Source: an uncultured Pseudomonadales bacterium
Lineage (GTDB): Bacteria; Pseudomonadota; Gammaproteobacteria; Pseudomonadales; Azotimanducaceae
Assembly: GCA_938017975.1 (NCBI GenBank)
Contig: CALIKQ010000002.1
Location: 1 to 64,000, forward strand
Length of the DNA stretch: 64,000 nt
Direction of reading: 5' to 3'
Shown: positions 12,529 through 23,523 of the stretch, piece by piece
Layout: every line of letters starts with the position of its first letter
Numbering within the stretch: position 1 is the stretch's first letter
Position numbers and translations under genes: made by a program
The notes under the pieces: generated by a model
What the model was told of the DNA's origin: nothing
The model's input: the letters and a program-made list of their open reading frames with translations, nothing else
Databases searched by the model: none

Positions 12529-14703
12529 TCATTCAACCAAAACCGATTGCGACGGATTATCCCAGAACGAAGTAATAACATCCTGCTCAATCACCCAAAA
12601 AACAGCGTCGTCATGAAATATAGAGCGTTGCTGACCCCAGATAGGGATGTTGGTCGCAGCATCCACTTCGAGAAATCCAGGTGATGTCAATGTAAGCGCG
12701 GAAGGATTTTCTGGGTTGGCAATTTCAAACAAATACAAGCGTGCAAGATTCGTATAGGGTGGATCTCTGAGATAACCCTCCACGGGTATCGCCATTCTGT
12801 GCGTATCGCTACTGGCTCGCCAATAGGTAAACGCTTTTCTATTGTACTCAGCCTGCGAGTAACTATACGACAGCGAATCATCCAACGTTAGCGCGCCTAA
12901 AGATTGCGGCGCTGTCAAATCACTGACATCAAAAAATTCAAGCTTGGTTAAACGGGTGTCGGAGCGACCTAGACCCAACAATACCGATTGGCTCACCGGA
13001 TGAAGAAAGTCTGAAAAGCCCGGCACCTCAAGTGAGCCTGCGATGAACGGATCCGCCGGGTTTGAAAGATCAATGACATAGAGCGGATCGATTCTTTCGA
13101 AGGTGACAAAATAGGCACGATCTCCAATAAATCGGACCCCATAAAGATCCTCGTTGGGCTTGCCGATCTCATCGGGACGGGTCGCGCTGGGCAGCTGGCC
13201 TATGACTTCTAGCGCAGGTTCCTCATCACTTGGCGCCAAAACGAACAAGGTATGGTCAATTCGGTCATCGACATCATCCTGCCATTGACTTAAAACAACG
13301 CGTAAGTTGGGCCCTGATGCATTCACTCGATAATCATTGTTGCCGCCGAGAAACAACCCACCTTGGAGTCGCACTGAACCCAAATAATCAGCCTTCTGAG
13401 CCAATTCAAACTGATGAATCAGCGTGTCAAAATCTCCCTCGTAAACGACTTGCGTAAAATACAAACTCTCTGTTGTCAGATAAACGCCGTCAATCGGTTC
13501 CAGAAGACAGACAGAATCGATCACCTCAGCTGTGTCTGGATCAATCTGTAAGACCATCGAAATTGTTGGAGAACCGGAGCGCTCAGGGGCATCCTGGTCT
13601 TCAGCATTGAGGGCGTAGCAATCTGAGGCTGCGACCGCTTCAAGGGCAACGCCGTCTCGCTCGATCAATGGTAAAAAGTCTTGCGTTTCCAAACCTTCTA
13701 ACAGATTTTGATTATTATCCAACTCCTCCTGACTCGCTGGATAATAATTTAGACCCTCAATGTTGGGAGAATGGCGGGTGACAACAAATATTCCAGCCTC
13801 GGTTCGACGGCTATTGACGAGCACTCCTTCGATTTGCAGCTGATGCAGCCGGTCATAATTCGATTCGGAGGCAACATCATAGATATCAAGCCCGACGGAC
13901 CCCCCTGACCAGCGCCCAGCGTCTGCGAAATCATCGCCATAACGTCCCCACCAATTAACGCTTGTAAGGGCAATGAGTTTTGAATCAACGAGGTAGAGTC
14001 CCTCTACACTCTGATTTTCCTCAAGAGGAATACTGGCCTCTTCCTGTGCAAGGCCCTCAGCAGGATTTGTTTTCAGAACTCGGATCCCACGCACGTCTTG
14101 ATCGTTTTGGATGATGGCTGGATCGACCACAGCGCCAACACTTTCCTCCGTTGCCGCACTGCCGTCCCCATTTGAGCCAATCGCTTCCGACCCGCTGCCG
14201 TCACCCGAGCCATCATCAACGATGTCATCGAACAGCACCTCTTCAACAAAGCCAAAACAGCATCCCAAACCACGTGTCGGAGCCACGAACATTCGGTCGC
14301 CGTCATATTTTACAAAATCATACTCATCAACATTTTTTTCGAGAGTATAGGTCGTCGTAAAACTGACCGTTTCAGTACGCATACCAGCATCCGCAGCTGT
14401 ACCTGAATCCCCACTCCCATCACCGCTGTCTGACTCCAGGGTCGCTATCCCCTCAAGGTCTGAGCTTTCCGTCGACGACCTAAGCCTTTCCTCAAAATAA
14501 TTTTGTAACCCTTGTACTGCTTTTTCTCGAAGCTCATCTGATCCAGCGATCTGAACCAACAACCCTTTAGGCGCGGGTGCTGGCGAAGGTGTGGCAACTG
14601 GCGTCTCCGGCGCATTTCCGCCACCACCGCCGCCGCAGGACGCGATCAGCGTCATTAACAAAACGGGCGCGAGGACACCCAGAAGCGATTTTTTTGAAAT
14701 CAT
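12529..14703 (-). CDS. Secreted lipoprotein with C-terminal beta-propeller domain
   Basis: Large surface or periplasmic lipoprotein. The signal peptide ends in LIASC, lipidation at C23, followed by a Gly/Pro/Ala-rich linker of about 25 residues. The remainder resembles the Beta_propel family (PF09826), secreted proteins distantly related to WD-40 propellers; the recurring hydrophobic strands ending in acidic turns (for example YVIDLSNPADPFIAGSLEVP and FFDVSDLTAPQSLGALTLDD) are its hallmarks. Two low-complexity loops rich in Gly, Asp and Ser (about residues 92-105 and 165-190) interrupt the N-terminal half. The 724 aa length is usual. The binding partner is unknown; propellers of this type are often called calcium- or polymer-binding without proof. 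It is a single gene with no operon partner. Confidence 0.8.
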   Translation of the reverse strand: MISKKSLLGVLAPVLLMTLIASCGGGGGGNAPETPVATPSPAPAPKGLLVQIAGSDELREKAVQGLQNYFEERLRSSTESSDLEGIATLESDSGDGSGDSGTAADAGMRTETVSFTTTYTLEKNVDEYDFVKYDGDRMFVAPTRGLGCCFGFVEEVLFDDIVDDGSGDGSGSEAIGSNGDGSAATEESVGAVVDPAIIQNDQDVRGIRVLKTNPAEGLAQEEASIPLEENQSVEGLYLVDSKLIALTSVNWWGRYGDDFADAGRWSGGSVGLDIYDVASESNYDRLHQLQIEGVLVNSRRTEAGIFVVTRHSPNIEGLNYYPASQEELDNNQNLLEGLETQDFLPLIERDGVALEAVAASDCYALNAEDQDAPERSGSPTISMVLQIDPDTAEVIDSVCLLEPIDGVYLTTESLYFTQVVYEGDFDTLIHQFELAQKADYLGSVRLQGGLFLGGNNDYRVNASGPNLRVVLSQWQDDVDDRIDHTLFVLAPSDEEPALEVIGQLPSATRPDEIGKPNEDLYGVRFIGDRAYFVTFERIDPLYVIDLSNPADPFIAGSLEVPGFSDFLHPVSQSVLLGLGRSDTRLTKLEFFDVSDLTAPQSLGALTLDDSLSYSYSQAEYNRKAFTYWRASSDTHRMAIPVEGYLRDPPYTNLARLYLFEIANPENPSALTLTSPGFLEVDAATNIPIWGQQRSIFHDDAVFWVIEQDVITSFWDNPSQSVLVE

Positions 14704-18988: not shown

Positions 18989-19298
18989 AAGCAGCTCCTT
19001 TGCGACAGCGGACATTGAACAGATCCAATAGAAAAGCGGTAAGCACCGCAACGAACTTATTCAACCACGAGACGTTGACCACTGTCATCAACCCATTCGC
19101 CAAGAGCGCACCGAATTTTTCTTGCAGTCAACCAGATCGCCGTCGTAAAAATCTACCACCATCACGGCCTGATTGCGCTTTTACAGGGGACATGCTTTAG
19201 TCAAACTCTTAACATCGCAAACTCACGAGAAAGCGCATGGTTTCCTCTCGCTCCAGGGCAGTTAACGCGAATCCAGCAACGCTTTAGGAAAAAATACT
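18989..19298. other. Divergent intergenic region
   Basis: This 310-bp gap separates the NIPSNAP operon (minus) from the stator-like operon (plus). It should contain the promoters of both, but no box pair with good spacing was found. No gene or repeat is seen. Confidence 0.5.
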
Positions 19299-19955
19299 TT
19301 GAATTTTTGGATACTCAACCGACGACCTGATGTCTGGCTCGACGCGTTGATCGCTGCTGGATGCTTGTTTTTTGCCGGCTATCTTCTTTGGTCCTACGGC
19401 TATCTTTTGCAGCTCGTGACCTCTGACAAAAGCTACCTTTCGATCATCATCATCATTATTTTTATCCTCAGTACTTTGAATTGGTTACTGCGCTGCAGGG
19501 CCTTGGGGAAGATTCAAAAATCACTGCAGCAGCCAGCCCTTCAGTTCGAGGACTATCTAGGGCTACAAGAAAGTCTCTTAGGCCAGACAAGCGCTGAGTC
19601 CGGCCCAAAGCAACTCAGTCCCGAGCAGATTGCAGACCATTTGCTGAACCGTCACGCTTTTGGTTACTTTATCAGCGACCTGCTTTTAAAACTCGGTCTC
19701 GTAGGCACCGTGATAGGATTTATCCTAATGCTTGGCCCGATCTCCGAGATTAAGAGTTTTGAACCCACAGTGATGCAGCAACTCCTAACGGCGATGAGTG
19801 GTGGAATGGCAATTGCGCTCTACACGACATTGACAGGGCTGGTCACAAGTACAGTTGTCAAAGGTCAGTATCACCTTGCGGACCAGAGCGTTGTTCAGAT
19901 CATCAGTGTCTTTGAGCGTGTCAAAGTCAGTATAGAGCCCAGTGCGCCATCCTAG
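19299..19955 (+). CDS. MotA/TolQ/ExbB-like proton channel protein
   Basis: Inner-membrane protein with four predicted helices (about residues 13-37, 44-63, 125-147 and 163-187), the topology of ExbB/TolQ/MotA stator subunits. The family signature appears in the last two helices: GLVGTVIGFILMLGP (helix 3) and SGGMAIALYTTLTGLVTSTV (helix 4), where the T/S-rich face lines the ion path. A cytoplasmic loop of about 60 residues separates helices 2 and 3. The start is TTG with AGGA 9 bases upstream. Its end overlaps the next gene by 14 bp. With 218 aa it is close to ExbB or TolQ in size, but the neighbours are not ExbD/TonB, TolR or flagellar genes. It is the first gene of a three-gene operon of unknown role. 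Confidence 0.82.
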   Translation: MNFWILNRRPDVWLDALIAAGCLFFAGYLLWSYGYLLQLVTSDKSYLSIIIIIIFILSTLNWLLRCRALGKIQKSLQQPALQFEDYLGLQESLLGQTSAESGPKQLSPEQIADHLLNRHAFGYFISDLLLKLGLVGTVIGFILMLGPISEIKSFEPTVMQQLLTAMSGGMAIALYTTLTGLVTSTVVKGQYHLADQSVVQIISVFERVKVSIEPSAPS

Positions 19956-20553
19956 CTTAAAGCGTTATCAACAGGACGACGTCTTCACTGACTTACTGTT
20001 CAATGCACTTTTAGGCTTTGTCTTTATGTTCGCAATTGCTTTCCTCATGATCAGCGAACCAGAGAAAAAAGGCGAAATTGCATCCAAGGCTGAGATGCTG
20101 ATCACCGTACGCTGGCCCGACAACCATCCCGATGATGTCGATGCCATTGTTGAAGATCCAACGGGAACACTCATCTGGTACTACAATCGAGACTCGGGGT
20201 TGATGCATCTCGATCGAGATGATCGCGGTGTCTTTGCAGACGAAATCAAGAGCGAAGGTACTCGGATCATCAACCCAATCAACCAGGAGAGTGTCACTTT
20301 GCGAGGTCTGCAATCAGGCGAGTATGTGATCAATTTATTGCATTATAAAGCCCATTACAGGGAACCATTACCTGTAACAGTAAAGGTCGAACGCCTCAAT
20401 CCGAGCGTCGAACTCATTTACTACGGTGACCATTATTTGACAGGCACTGGCGATGAAATCACGGCGTTGCGCATGAGTCTTGATACCAAAGGCCATGTTG
20501 TGGGGGTCAACCAATTGCCCAAACCCTTGTTGATTCACAACCAGAATAAATGA
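19942..20553 (+). CDS. Membrane-anchored periplasmic protein with MotB/ExbD-like helix
   Basis: Unrecognised 203-aa protein with one N-terminal membrane helix and a periplasmic domain. The helix runs from about residue 14 to 37, and its start FTDLLFNALLGFVFMF resembles the MotB/ExbD ion-carrying helix, with D17 at the place of the essential aspartate. The soluble part is predicted beta-rich (AEMLITVRWPD, PTGTLIWYY, GEYVINLLHY, PVTVKVER). It shows neither the OmpA-like peptidoglycan domain of MotB nor the ExbD/TolR fold by eye. The start is GTG within the preceding gene, and the end overlaps the next gene as ATGA, so the three proteins are likely made in fixed ratio. It probably partners the channel protein upstream. 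Confidence 0.7.
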   Translation: MRHPSLKRYQQDDVFTDLLFNALLGFVFMFAIAFLMISEPEKKGEIASKAEMLITVRWPDNHPDDVDAIVEDPTGTLIWYYNRDSGLMHLDRDDRGVFADEIKSEGTRIINPINQESVTLRGLQSGEYVINLLHYKAHYREPLPVTVKVERLNPSVELIYYGDHYLTGTGDEITALRMSLDTKGHVVGVNQLPKPLLIHNQNK

Positions 20554-21116
20554 CGATGACCGACCACTCCATCATCGGCCTTTGCTATGTTCTGATCACG
20601 GTTCTTTTGTTGATCTGTTTGAAAGCTTCAAACATTGCCACACACTTTAAAATTGGCTTGATCGTGCTCATGAGCAGTTTTTACATTGTGACGTGGGAGC
20701 AAGTCCGTAACCTAAAGGGATGGTCAACTTTCTCGCCGCTGCCAGAGTCTTTTCGAGTCATTTGGATCCATATTCGAGAGGACAATAAGTCAACGGGCGA
20801 AGCTGGCAAGATTTACTATTGGATCAGAGCCTTAGACGAAGTCGGGCTTCCTAGCAGGCCGCCGAGGGTTCACCACATTCCCTGGAACCTCGAAGCTGCA
20901 GAGCTCGCAGAAACAGCGAAAGCGAGACTCGAGGCTGGTGAAGTACTCAACGGGCGCCTAAGCAATAACGCTCTGATCAGGCAAGAGGCTCAGTCGGAGC
21001 AGTCAATGAACGACAAAGATCCTCTACGCGCTGGTGAAGATCAAAAGCAACCACAATTCGAATTCATCACCGTAGCGCCACCCAGCTTGCCAACCAAGAT
21101 CATCCCGATTCAATAA
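20550..21116 (+). CDS. Uncharacterised two-helix membrane protein, third gene of stator-like operon
   Basis: Not recognised. The 188-aa protein has two N-terminal membrane helices (about residues 8-25 and 32-48) and a soluble tail. The centre of the tail (about 60-125) contains PESFRVIWIHIRE, GKIYYWIRALDEVGLPSRPP and RVHHIPW, which looks like a compact folded domain. The last 50 residues are polar and likely disordered, ending in a proline-rich stretch. The start overlaps the preceding stop by four bases. No classical TonB or TolA feature is present, so it is not a clear energy-transducing arm. As the last gene of the operon it may be the effector or adaptor of the channel complex. Confidence 0.6.
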   Translation: MTMTDHSIIGLCYVLITVLLLICLKASNIATHFKIGLIVLMSSFYIVTWEQVRNLKGWSTFSPLPESFRVIWIHIREDNKSTGEAGKIYYWIRALDEVGLPSRPPRVHHIPWNLEAAELAETAKARLEAGEVLNGRLSNNALIRQEAQSEQSMNDKDPLRAGEDQKQPQFEFITVAPPSLPTKIIPIQ

Positions 21117-21120
21117 ATCG

Positions 21121-23355
21121 CTAACCGCCCGGGCTGACCTGCCAAGTCATTTGAGGCATTTCTTTATCCCCAGCAGCAACGAGCCTGTCCTCCTCAGCAC
21201 GCGCTTTCACGTAACTCAGGACATCGGTAGATTGCTCCGCATTTAAAACATCTGCAAAGCTTGCCATTCCTTTCGCGGACAACAACCCGTCAAGGACAAT
21301 ATTATTAAAAGCAGCGACCGTCTCGGGCGTCATTCTTCTCAAATCGGGAATTGAACCTCCTGAACGAACAAGAAATCCATGACACACAGCGCAATTTTCG
21401 TTGTAAGCAACTTCACCACGCTCGATACTGGCCAACTCAACGTTCGTCATGTCCTGAGCAGGAATACCACGATCTCTAAGGTTTGGAACGGGCAACTCGG
21501 CATCTCCGCCCAGGGCAAAAACCAACAATCGACCGTAATTGTTGTAAGTCAGAGAGGCATGTTCAGCCACCGGCGGCAAAGGCTCCCCACCAAAAAGATC
21601 GCCTCCACCTGTCCCAGTTAAAACAGAAACGTATTGGACTCCGTCTAGCTCAAAACTGATCGGCGGTGCCAGCATGGAGGTGTAGGTATTGAACTCCCAA
21701 ACCTTCTCTCCCGTCGCTTTGTCGTAGGCGACAAACATGCCCAATGCATTACCCTGAAAGACAAGGCCACCCTGAGTTCCAAGCACACCGCCATTCCAAT
21801 AATGGGGAATCTCAACAACCCAGCGATCCTCACCGGTCAGAGGATCGAATGCTTTCAAGTAACCCTTTGGCGTTGGCTGATCTGCAATATTATCTAGCGT
21901 GACCTGGGCGAGCCGTCCAAACTCTAGACCCGTGTTCCAGCCCCTGGGCTTGTGTTTATAAACTCCAGTTTGTTTCCACTCCGACGTCATTTCAAAGAAC
22001 AGCGGATTGTCCTGAGCTGGGATATAGACCAAGCCAGCATCTTCATCAACCGACATTGCCTGCCAGTTGTGCGCGCCCAGAGGTCCCGGCAGAATCCATT
22101 TTCCATCTTTTCGATAGTCAAGATCAGGATTTTCGACTGGTCGACCTGTTTCAAGATCAACATGCGTCGCCCAAGTCACACTCGCGAAGGGATTGGCTGC
22201 GAGCAAATCGCCGTTACTTCGGTCGAGGACATAGAAAAATCCATTTTTAGGCGCTTGCAGCAAGACCTTCTTCATCGATCCGTCGATCTCAAGCTCGGCC
22301 AGTGCCATGTCTTGAACCGCAGTGTAATCCCAGTTGTCTCCTGGTGTTGTCTGATAATGCCACTTATACGCACCCGTATCGGCGTCCACCGCAACAATCG
22401 AGGATAAGAAGAGGTTGTCTCCGCCGCCGGGTGATCGAATCACTCGCGTCCAGGGTGAACCATTGCCGACGCCTAAATACAGATGGTTGAAATCAGGGTC
22501 ATAAACAATGGAATTCCACACTGTGCCGCCACCGCCAATTTTCCACCATTCGCCGCCCTTCCAAGTGGCTGCTGCCATTTCCATTTCAGGGCTCTCGAAA
22601 GGCAAATTAGGATCACCTGGTACGGTAAAGAACCGCCAAATTTGCTCTCCCGTGTTGACGTCATACGCCGTCACATAGCCTCGTACGCCATACTCGCCGC
22701 CGCCATTACCGATAAAGACCTTGTCGTTGGCGACCCTCGGCGCACCGGTAATCGTGTAAGGCCGGTCACGATCGGTGAGGGTATCGACCGACCAGACCTC
22801 GGCACCTGTCGCCGCATCCAATGCAATTAACCGACCGTCCAAACTGCCAACATAAACACGCCCCTTGTAGACTGCAACGCCTCGATTCACCACATCGCAA
22901 CACGCCCATCGAGCCCATTCACCTGGCACTTGGGGATCATAGGACCAGACGGTATCTCCTGTTCTGGCGTCAACAGCATAAACGCGGCTCCAAGAGGTCG
23001 TAAAAAACATGATGCCATCGACCACGATCGGCGTGGCTTCGAGGGCGCGGCTGGTACCCATATCCTTGTACCAGGCAAGACCTAGGTCACTGACCGTGTC
23101 TCGATTGATCGTTTTAAGTGGAGAGAATCGCGTCTCACCATAATTACGACCAAACGCAAGCCAGTTGCCAGGCTCTGTGTCGGCGGCCTTAATCCGTTCA
23201 TCATCAATGAGGCCAATCGTCGGCGGGTTTAGAACGTCCTGTTGAACACCCAAAGTGTCTTTTAAGGTTTGAGATTCAGGCCCTGCCTGCCCTCCCAGCA
23301 AGTAGACCACGCCAGCCAGTACCAATATCGCAATAGCCACTAAACCTTTATTCAC
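21121..23355 (-). CDS. PQQ-dependent quinohemoprotein alcohol dehydrogenase
   Basis: Periplasmic type II quinohemoprotein dehydrogenase that oxidises alcohols with PQQ and passes electrons through its own heme c. An N-terminal signal or anchor helix (about residues 5-20) is followed by an eight-bladed PQQ propeller. The vicinal disulfide WACCDVVNRG, the catalytic aspartate in GDNWDYTAVQ and several W-docking repeats (AVDARTGDTVW, ALDAATGAEVW) are visible. The C-terminal cytochrome c domain has CAVCH at about 655-659 with a later axial Met. The residue two after the catalytic Asp is Thr, not the Asp of lanthanide enzymes, which points to calcium. The start at 23355 (GTG, AGGGGAG 5 bases upstream, 744 aa) is preferred over the longer frame to 23448. 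No pqq synthesis genes are in the window. Confidence 0.88.
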   Translation of the reverse strand: MNKGLVAIAILVLAGVVYLLGGQAGPESQTLKDTLGVQQDVLNPPTIGLIDDERIKAADTEPGNWLAFGRNYGETRFSPLKTINRDTVSDLGLAWYKDMGTSRALEATPIVVDGIMFFTTSWSRVYAVDARTGDTVWSYDPQVPGEWARWACCDVVNRGVAVYKGRVYVGSLDGRLIALDAATGAEVWSVDTLTDRDRPYTITGAPRVANDKVFIGNGGGEYGVRGYVTAYDVNTGEQIWRFFTVPGDPNLPFESPEMEMAAATWKGGEWWKIGGGGTVWNSIVYDPDFNHLYLGVGNGSPWTRVIRSPGGGDNLFLSSIVAVDADTGAYKWHYQTTPGDNWDYTAVQDMALAELEIDGSMKKVLLQAPKNGFFYVLDRSNGDLLAANPFASVTWATHVDLETGRPVENPDLDYRKDGKWILPGPLGAHNWQAMSVDEDAGLVYIPAQDNPLFFEMTSEWKQTGVYKHKPRGWNTGLEFGRLAQVTLDNIADQPTPKGYLKAFDPLTGEDRWVVEIPHYWNGGVLGTQGGLVFQGNALGMFVAYDKATGEKVWEFNTYTSMLAPPISFELDGVQYVSVLTGTGGGDLFGGEPLPPVAEHASLTYNNYGRLLVFALGGDAELPVPNLRDRGIPAQDMTNVELASIERGEVAYNENCAVCHGFLVRSGGSIPDLRRMTPETVAAFNNIVLDGLLSAKGMASFADVLNAEQSTDVLSYVKARAEEDRLVAAGDKEMPQMTWQVSPGG

Positions 23356-23523
23356 AATTGCTCCCCTCATATTTCTTATTCTTCGAAACAGCTTTGAGAA
23401 TACCGCTGCCAATCCGCTTTCACAATCAAAAATCGATAGCCACCACAAGGGTTAGTATTCTTACATTGACCCTGCCCGCTTGATCATGTTTGACTCTTTT
23501 CGAACCCGCTCAGAGAAATCTGC

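Follow-up and report, generated by a model that had tools for sequence, protein, structure and literature searches.

Few outputs are known for ion-driven motors of the MotA/TolQ/ExbB superfamily, namely flagellar torque, Ton import, Tol envelope work, gliding and Zorya, and the periplasm in which such work would be delivered contains no ATP. Non-flagellar relatives of MotAB, ExbBD and TolQR have been classed as generic ion transporters (GIT), some of unknown function, whose B protein is described as carrying a compact peptidoglycan-binding fold (PMC12505986). The locus described here lies on the plus strand within a window of 64,000 nucleotides (the whole stretch of DNA that was analysed) and resembles a GIT system in that it pairs a channel-family A protein bearing pore Thr residues with a single-helix B protein that has, in the window's branch, an Asp near the start of the helix. 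It differs in the predicted TerD-like head of B, in a conserved third gene (C), in the replacement of the Asp, paired with a Lys at residue 21, in part of the family, and in a link to PQQ-dependent dehydrogenases. Our verdict is that the module is a member of the GIT kind with a different head and a PQQ tie. The terms 'pqq', 'terd' and 'dehydrogenase' are absent from the main text of PMC12505986, and no paper on this module was among the top-ranked literature matches (for instance the first 15 of 524 and 12 of 542 papers); since subscription papers are also mostly outside this coverage, the absence of an earlier description is not proven.

A conserved three-gene module

The three open reading frames lie where the first-pass annotation had placed them: gene A at 19299..19955 (+; 218 aa, TTG start), gene B at 19942..20553 (+; 203 aa, GTG start) and gene C at 20550..21116 (+; 188 aa). 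The reported overlaps are also as described, with the GTG of B inside A (14 bases) and the start of C overlapping the end of B by four bases (ATGA). An AGGA at 19286..19289 (+), read from the sequence, is the likely ribosome-binding site for gene A.

The product of gene A matches PF01618 at 32.9 bits, exceeding the curated cut-off of 22.9, in agreement with its naming as a MotA/TolQ/ExbB-like channel protein. Of the four helices attributed to it, three were passed by a hydropathy scan (residues 11-34, 36-70 and 121-152); the fourth, which probably spans about residues 163-186 as judged from the family, falls below the threshold of the scan. Both pore helices carry a conserved Thr in all 20 aligned A proteins, T137 and T177 being invariant together with glycines, and we take these two residues to have the pore-lining role of their counterparts in ExbB/MotA.

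Membership of A in this superfamily is what would favor an ordinary ExbBD, TolQR, MotAB or Zorya pair, yet A scores far below the cut-offs of the respective models (PomA 19.1 against 341 bits, TolQ 15.9 against 221, MotA 10.4 against 380 and ZorA 11.2 against 500), and the best PADLOC match to Zorya has an E value of 0.0023. Nor is B a standard ExbD, TolR or MotB, as a Pfam scan of 31 B members at E<=10, with filters that discard most hits above 0.1, gave no match to ExbD/TolR (PF02472) or to any other model of ExbD or MotB; the same scan gave no OmpA-like domain in B, and hhalign of B against ExbD aligned an unsupported 12 columns. An ordinary pair was therefore rejected on the model scores of A and B, and we consider it very nearly out of the question. 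The usual partners are also missing from the neighborhood as originally stated, with no TonB, TolA, Pal, OmpA-like or flagellar gene among the ORFs of 14-27 kb inspected by eye. Elsewhere in the window's genome there are five further PF01618 genes (six including A) and four ExbD-family genes, so additional superfamily systems are present in this genome. Like ExbB-ExbD-TonB, the module joins a putatively ion-driven pair to a third inner-membrane protein reaching the periplasm, but its B has no ExbD match and its C has two helices and a predicted OB-like domain.

B is present in 22 of 58 genomes (the window's own and its relatives). The alphaproteobacterial set of 190 genomes has it in 22 and the gammaproteobacterial set of 229 in 28 (31 places), and the GTDB collection yielded 192 stretches with B, the best 80 of which were analysed. 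Such conservation across two classes argues against chance ORFs. The three genes recur together in other genomes, with A as well as C lying no more than 3.5 kb from B in 95 of 112 distinct B rows; sorted by hand, the remaining 17 comprise 11 with neither A nor C, all from alphaproteobacterial records, and six at contig ends. Among the 27 of the 31 gamma places that were examined, A is found in 24, B in 26 and C in 24. A distant Azospirillum-like clade (nine tree rows, one from a gamma genome) also retains A, B and C, once in the order A-C-B, and among plasmid records only Azospirillum copies were found, which are unannotated. The description of a pair resembling a stator, accompanied by a third gene and conserved as a three-gene module, is thereby supported.

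Two departures from this arrangement were observed. At L039:3674-5926 the operon is interrupted after A and before B by the gene for a 751-aa acylase-looking lipoprotein (named by eye), and genome G063 has extra copies of B without A or C at L062:6602-7135 and other loci, one of which has a signal-peptide-like start and the head while the axle helix is missing.

The axle helix of B and its Asp17

B is an axle-type protein for which AlphaFold2 (pLDDT 82) predicts one N-terminal helix followed by a periplasmic beta-sandwich. The predicted transmembrane helix spans residues 11-37 (19972..20052, +), in a protein with one hydrophobic stretch by hydropathy scan, and the codon of Asp17 occupies 19990..19992 (+). 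This residue, proposed to stand at the place of the ion-binding Asp of MotB and ExbD, is conserved in the window's branch and not in the family as a whole. Among 130 distinct B rows, 127 were readable at both sites 17 and 21 and were sorted by hand. Asp17, which the window's B has too, occurs in 79, where residue 21 is Asn (68), Leu (10) or Gly (1); in the other 48, residue 17 is Val, Ile or Ala and residue 21 is Lys, a share that is no census as Bradyrhizobium is over-represented in the sample. None of the 127 rows has a mixed state, so the replacement is always paired. Hyphomicrobium facile and Bradyrhizobium BTAi1 each gave a single B match, of the Lys21 type in either case. We consequently rejected Asp17 as a hallmark of the whole B family.

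On a tree of 80 B rows thinned from 113, built by a quick method with the columns of residues 17 and 21 excluded and containing several long branches, the Lys21 state needs three changes, and branches with good support require at least two of them. None of 500 label shuffles reached as few, a low count to which near-copies contribute. The idea that the carboxylate has moved out of B to residue 168 of A was likewise rejected as a general rule. This residue is Asp in 43 of 43 Val/Ile17-Lys21 pairs versus 0 of 44 (alpha branch), and the other Lys21 rows (acidic in 0 of 4 Ala17-Lys21 pairs) and the Asp17 pairs (acidic in 10 of 68) mark it as a branch trait and not a general partner.

By homology the module may be an ion-driven 5:2 machine. 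In such an arrangement a ring of A would surround a dimer of B to form a generic motor of the MotA/ExbB type, driven by the flow of protons (or sodium) past Asp17 of B and Thr137 and Thr177 of A. We infer the ring, the dimer and the ion flow, as we do the metal binding and the job of the module discussed below. If instead the module had become a sensor or scaffold that is no longer ion-driven, at least in the Lys21 branch, one would expect rows without Asp17 as seen in 48 of the 127, a histidine kinase or response regulator adjoining A-B-C as seen in 28 of 43 Val17 loci, and solitary B copies such as the 11 of 112 rows with neither A nor C, one of them a secreted head lacking the helix. Against it stand residues T137 and T177 of A, which do not vary in the Lys21 members of the 20 aligned proteins either, and the replacement of residues 17 and 21 always as a pair, and we regard this alternative as improbable. 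The paired Asp17-Lys21 replacement provides a natural experiment on the need for the axle carboxylate.

Predicted structures of the B head and of C

At E<=5 neither Pfam nor NCBIfam has a model that matches B or C, and to that extent the periplasmic domain of B (residues 50-198; 20089..20535, +) is as unrecognised as first described. Its modelled structure, however, resembles TerD-related structures, with 2qng and 2qz7 as the top structural matches, and a TerD query recovers the same two entries, each at E<1e-8. The modelled beta-sandwich of the head is shared also with SCP2 chain 9a6r_B, another TerD-related structure. The W, D-x-D, D-D-R-G and Q-E-S stretches of the head stand in register with the TerD letters when compared by eye, and residues D60, D65, D67, D93 and E116 are invariant in B. 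TerD is a calcium-binding protein, and the invariant acidic residues of B would fit calcium binding.

The resemblance lies in the modelled beta-sandwich; in contrast to 2qng and 2qz7 the head of B is periplasmic, sits on a transmembrane axle and has no significant sequence match. The TerD profile PF02342 is absent from the Pfam matches of 31 B members, and hhalign of the B head against TerD scored 16.8, which is not significant as 4 of 60 column shuffles reached it; of four B-TerD pairings one beat all 60 shuffles and three failed to. Foldseek alone returned nothing for the head at E<=0.001, nor do 2kxt and 3ibz, two entries for classical TerD, figure among the 50 structural matches listed. 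Pfam names for the head were discarded, the matches among the 31 members being scattered and unconvincing: PPC in eight (best E 0.033), Caleosin in seven (best E 0.00039) and DUF2135 in one (E 0.023).

For C the two-helix description agrees with two hydrophobic stretches in the hydropathy scan, and the tail that had gone unrecognised is predicted to be part of a small periplasmic domain (residues 61-177; 20730..21080, +), which its conserved strand 170-174 closes in the model. The likeness of this domain to OB folds is weak. A TonB-box-like motif in the conserved tail was rejected, because the model places the tail as the final strand of the domain. Tandem duplicates of gene C occur at L056, L234, L235 and L237. 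In the motor outlined above, the output would be the periplasmic TerD-like head of B working with a membrane-anchored, OB-like C.

Association with PQQ-dependent dehydrogenases

Tail-to-tail with C lies a gene for a PQQ-dependent alcohol dehydrogenase with a C-terminal cytochrome c (21121..23448, -), whose product scores 613.1 bits on TIGR03075 (cut-off 480.05); its C-terminus contains CxxCH and matches TIGR04494 at 46 bits, below the cut-off of 122. In the set of 58 genomes, 22 bear B and 20 of them, compared by hand, have a convergent TIGR03075 gene within 3 kb of it (in G003 the gene is in two pieces); in the other two B is on a short contig or at a contig end. As TIGR03075 is matched at E<=0.001 in 58 of 58 genomes (over the cut-off in 45), its mere presence is uninformative in that set.

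The wider sets allow such a comparison. All 14 alphaproteobacterial genomes with a main-clade B have TIGR03075 or TIGR03863 at E<1e-100 (11 and 10 genomes, respectively), as opposed to 33 of the 176 without, in a set of 190 centred on the B-bearing genome G058, which is counted among the 14. In the 229 gammaproteobacterial genomes a marker is present in 20 of 26 with B (TIGR03075 at E<1e-100 in 19, TIGR03863 at E<1e-50 in seven, neither in six) versus 20 of 203 without, a count that omits two weak or partial B matches, one without a dehydrogenase (G329) and one with (G416). The corresponding p values (6e-10 and 6e-13) are too small, because Fisher's test ignores kinship and the genomes are not independent. 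Removing the window's genome leaves 19 of 25, and by a hand count, for which B-less families have no matching total, 17 of 20 B-bearing gamma families have a marker. TIGR03863 at E<=1e-50 has no match in the window's genome, and one locus protein scored on this model fell under the cut-off (377.7 against 413.6). In the distant clade there is no association (2 of 8 alpha genomes versus 45 of 182).

Beyond the window's family the positional link is weaker. Among the best 80 of 192 loci, some with short flanks, a dehydrogenase lies within ~6 kb in 18 of 33 Asp17 loci versus 2 of 43 Val17 loci, and 4 of 27 gamma regions have one near A-B-C. Any PQQ-linked neighbor is found in 25 of 33 and 7 of 43, respectively, and we prefer the dehydrogenase count since the ABC-ATPase and FMN-binding seeds may catch unrelated genes. 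Single tested neighbors exceed the cut-offs of TIGR03864, TIGR03861, TIGR03866, TIGR04557 and TIGR04558, and other neighbors are pentapeptide proteins. Overall the PQQ association of the module is strong but incomplete, being statistical and, in the window's family, also positional.

D-[YF]-D marks lanthanide dehydrogenases. A lanthanide link as such was rejected, as the window enzyme reads W-D-Y-T, the enzymes of five loci (L061, L227, L236, L240 and L246) read D-[YF]-D, and several others have no readable motif. The types of neighbor that exceeded a cut-off, and the pentapeptide proteins, all figure in the ped gene cluster of Pseudomonas, which the module's surroundings resemble in PQQ dehydrogenase, PedA1/A2/B/C-type transport, pentapeptide protein, SoxYZ-like carrier and SoxH-like metallohydrolase, while 'exbb', 'mota' and 'tolq' are absent from the main text of that source (PMC12997753). 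Candidate members of the family are two MotA/TolQ/ExbB genes of Methylomicrobium alcaliphilum 20ZR, MEALZ_3990 and MEALZ_3991, whose expression is reported to fall together with that of mxa genes on substitution of La for Ca (PMC6277846).

Taken as a whole, we favor, tentatively and at somewhat less than even confidence, a reading in which A and B form an ion-driven motor with the TerD-like head of B and C as its output, serving PQQ dehydrogenase systems; in the main clade the motor would serve periplasmic PQQ-dependent dehydrogenases, most likely by powering metal or cofactor handling or maturation. A more specific version is doubtful, namely that the TerD-like head binds metal and serves to load or condition periplasmic quinoproteins at their Ca2+ or Ln3+ (and PQQ) centres, with one branch having repeatedly shifted the charge of the axle from Asp17 to Lys21 and perhaps using a different ion path. 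If the general reading is true, these motors would gain an extra output, provided by a widespread module that has a different head and a genome-level quinoprotein tie; this could explain how work reaches periplasmic metalloenzymes, and may point to an undescribed job for ion-driven motors.

The PQQ genes could also be mere companions, in aerobic periplasm-rich bacteria, of a general Tol-like envelope machine acting on peptidoglycan or the outer membrane. Such a machine would suit the gamma flanks, where clusters named by their L223 member encode YkuD L,D-transpeptidase (9/27), DUF302 (10/27), VWA/FHA (10/27) and cytochrome b561 (5/27), and the distant clade, which has the operon without the PQQ association; the strong genome-level association in two classes and the near-constant adjacency of the dehydrogenase in the window's family weigh against it, and we consider it unlikely, though a serious contender. 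At L061, A-B-C is surrounded by a gene that looks by eye like a receptor, by ABC genes of the PedA1 type and by a PQQ dehydrogenase, as expected if the module, as a TonB-like machine without TonB, supplied energy to a transporter in the outer membrane for metal, metallophore or PQQ. The L061 receptor, used as a single seed at E<=1e-15, matched only its own locus among the 80, and the modelled domain of C resembles OB folds, albeit weakly; we consider energised uptake quite unlikely.

Several further neighborhoods were observed. Most of the loci L027-L043, which are gamma loci and alpha loci labelled PS1/Rhodobiaceae, have a gene of a dehydrogenase family after C on the other strand, a shared layout that could mean whole-block transfer. 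Another gamma context consists of an NtrC-type regulator and a kinase, and at L089:2989-5001 a histidine kinase and/or response regulator is found beside A-B-C. Finally, the window itself carries a large Gly/Ser-rich lipoprotein-like gene at 12529-14703 (-).
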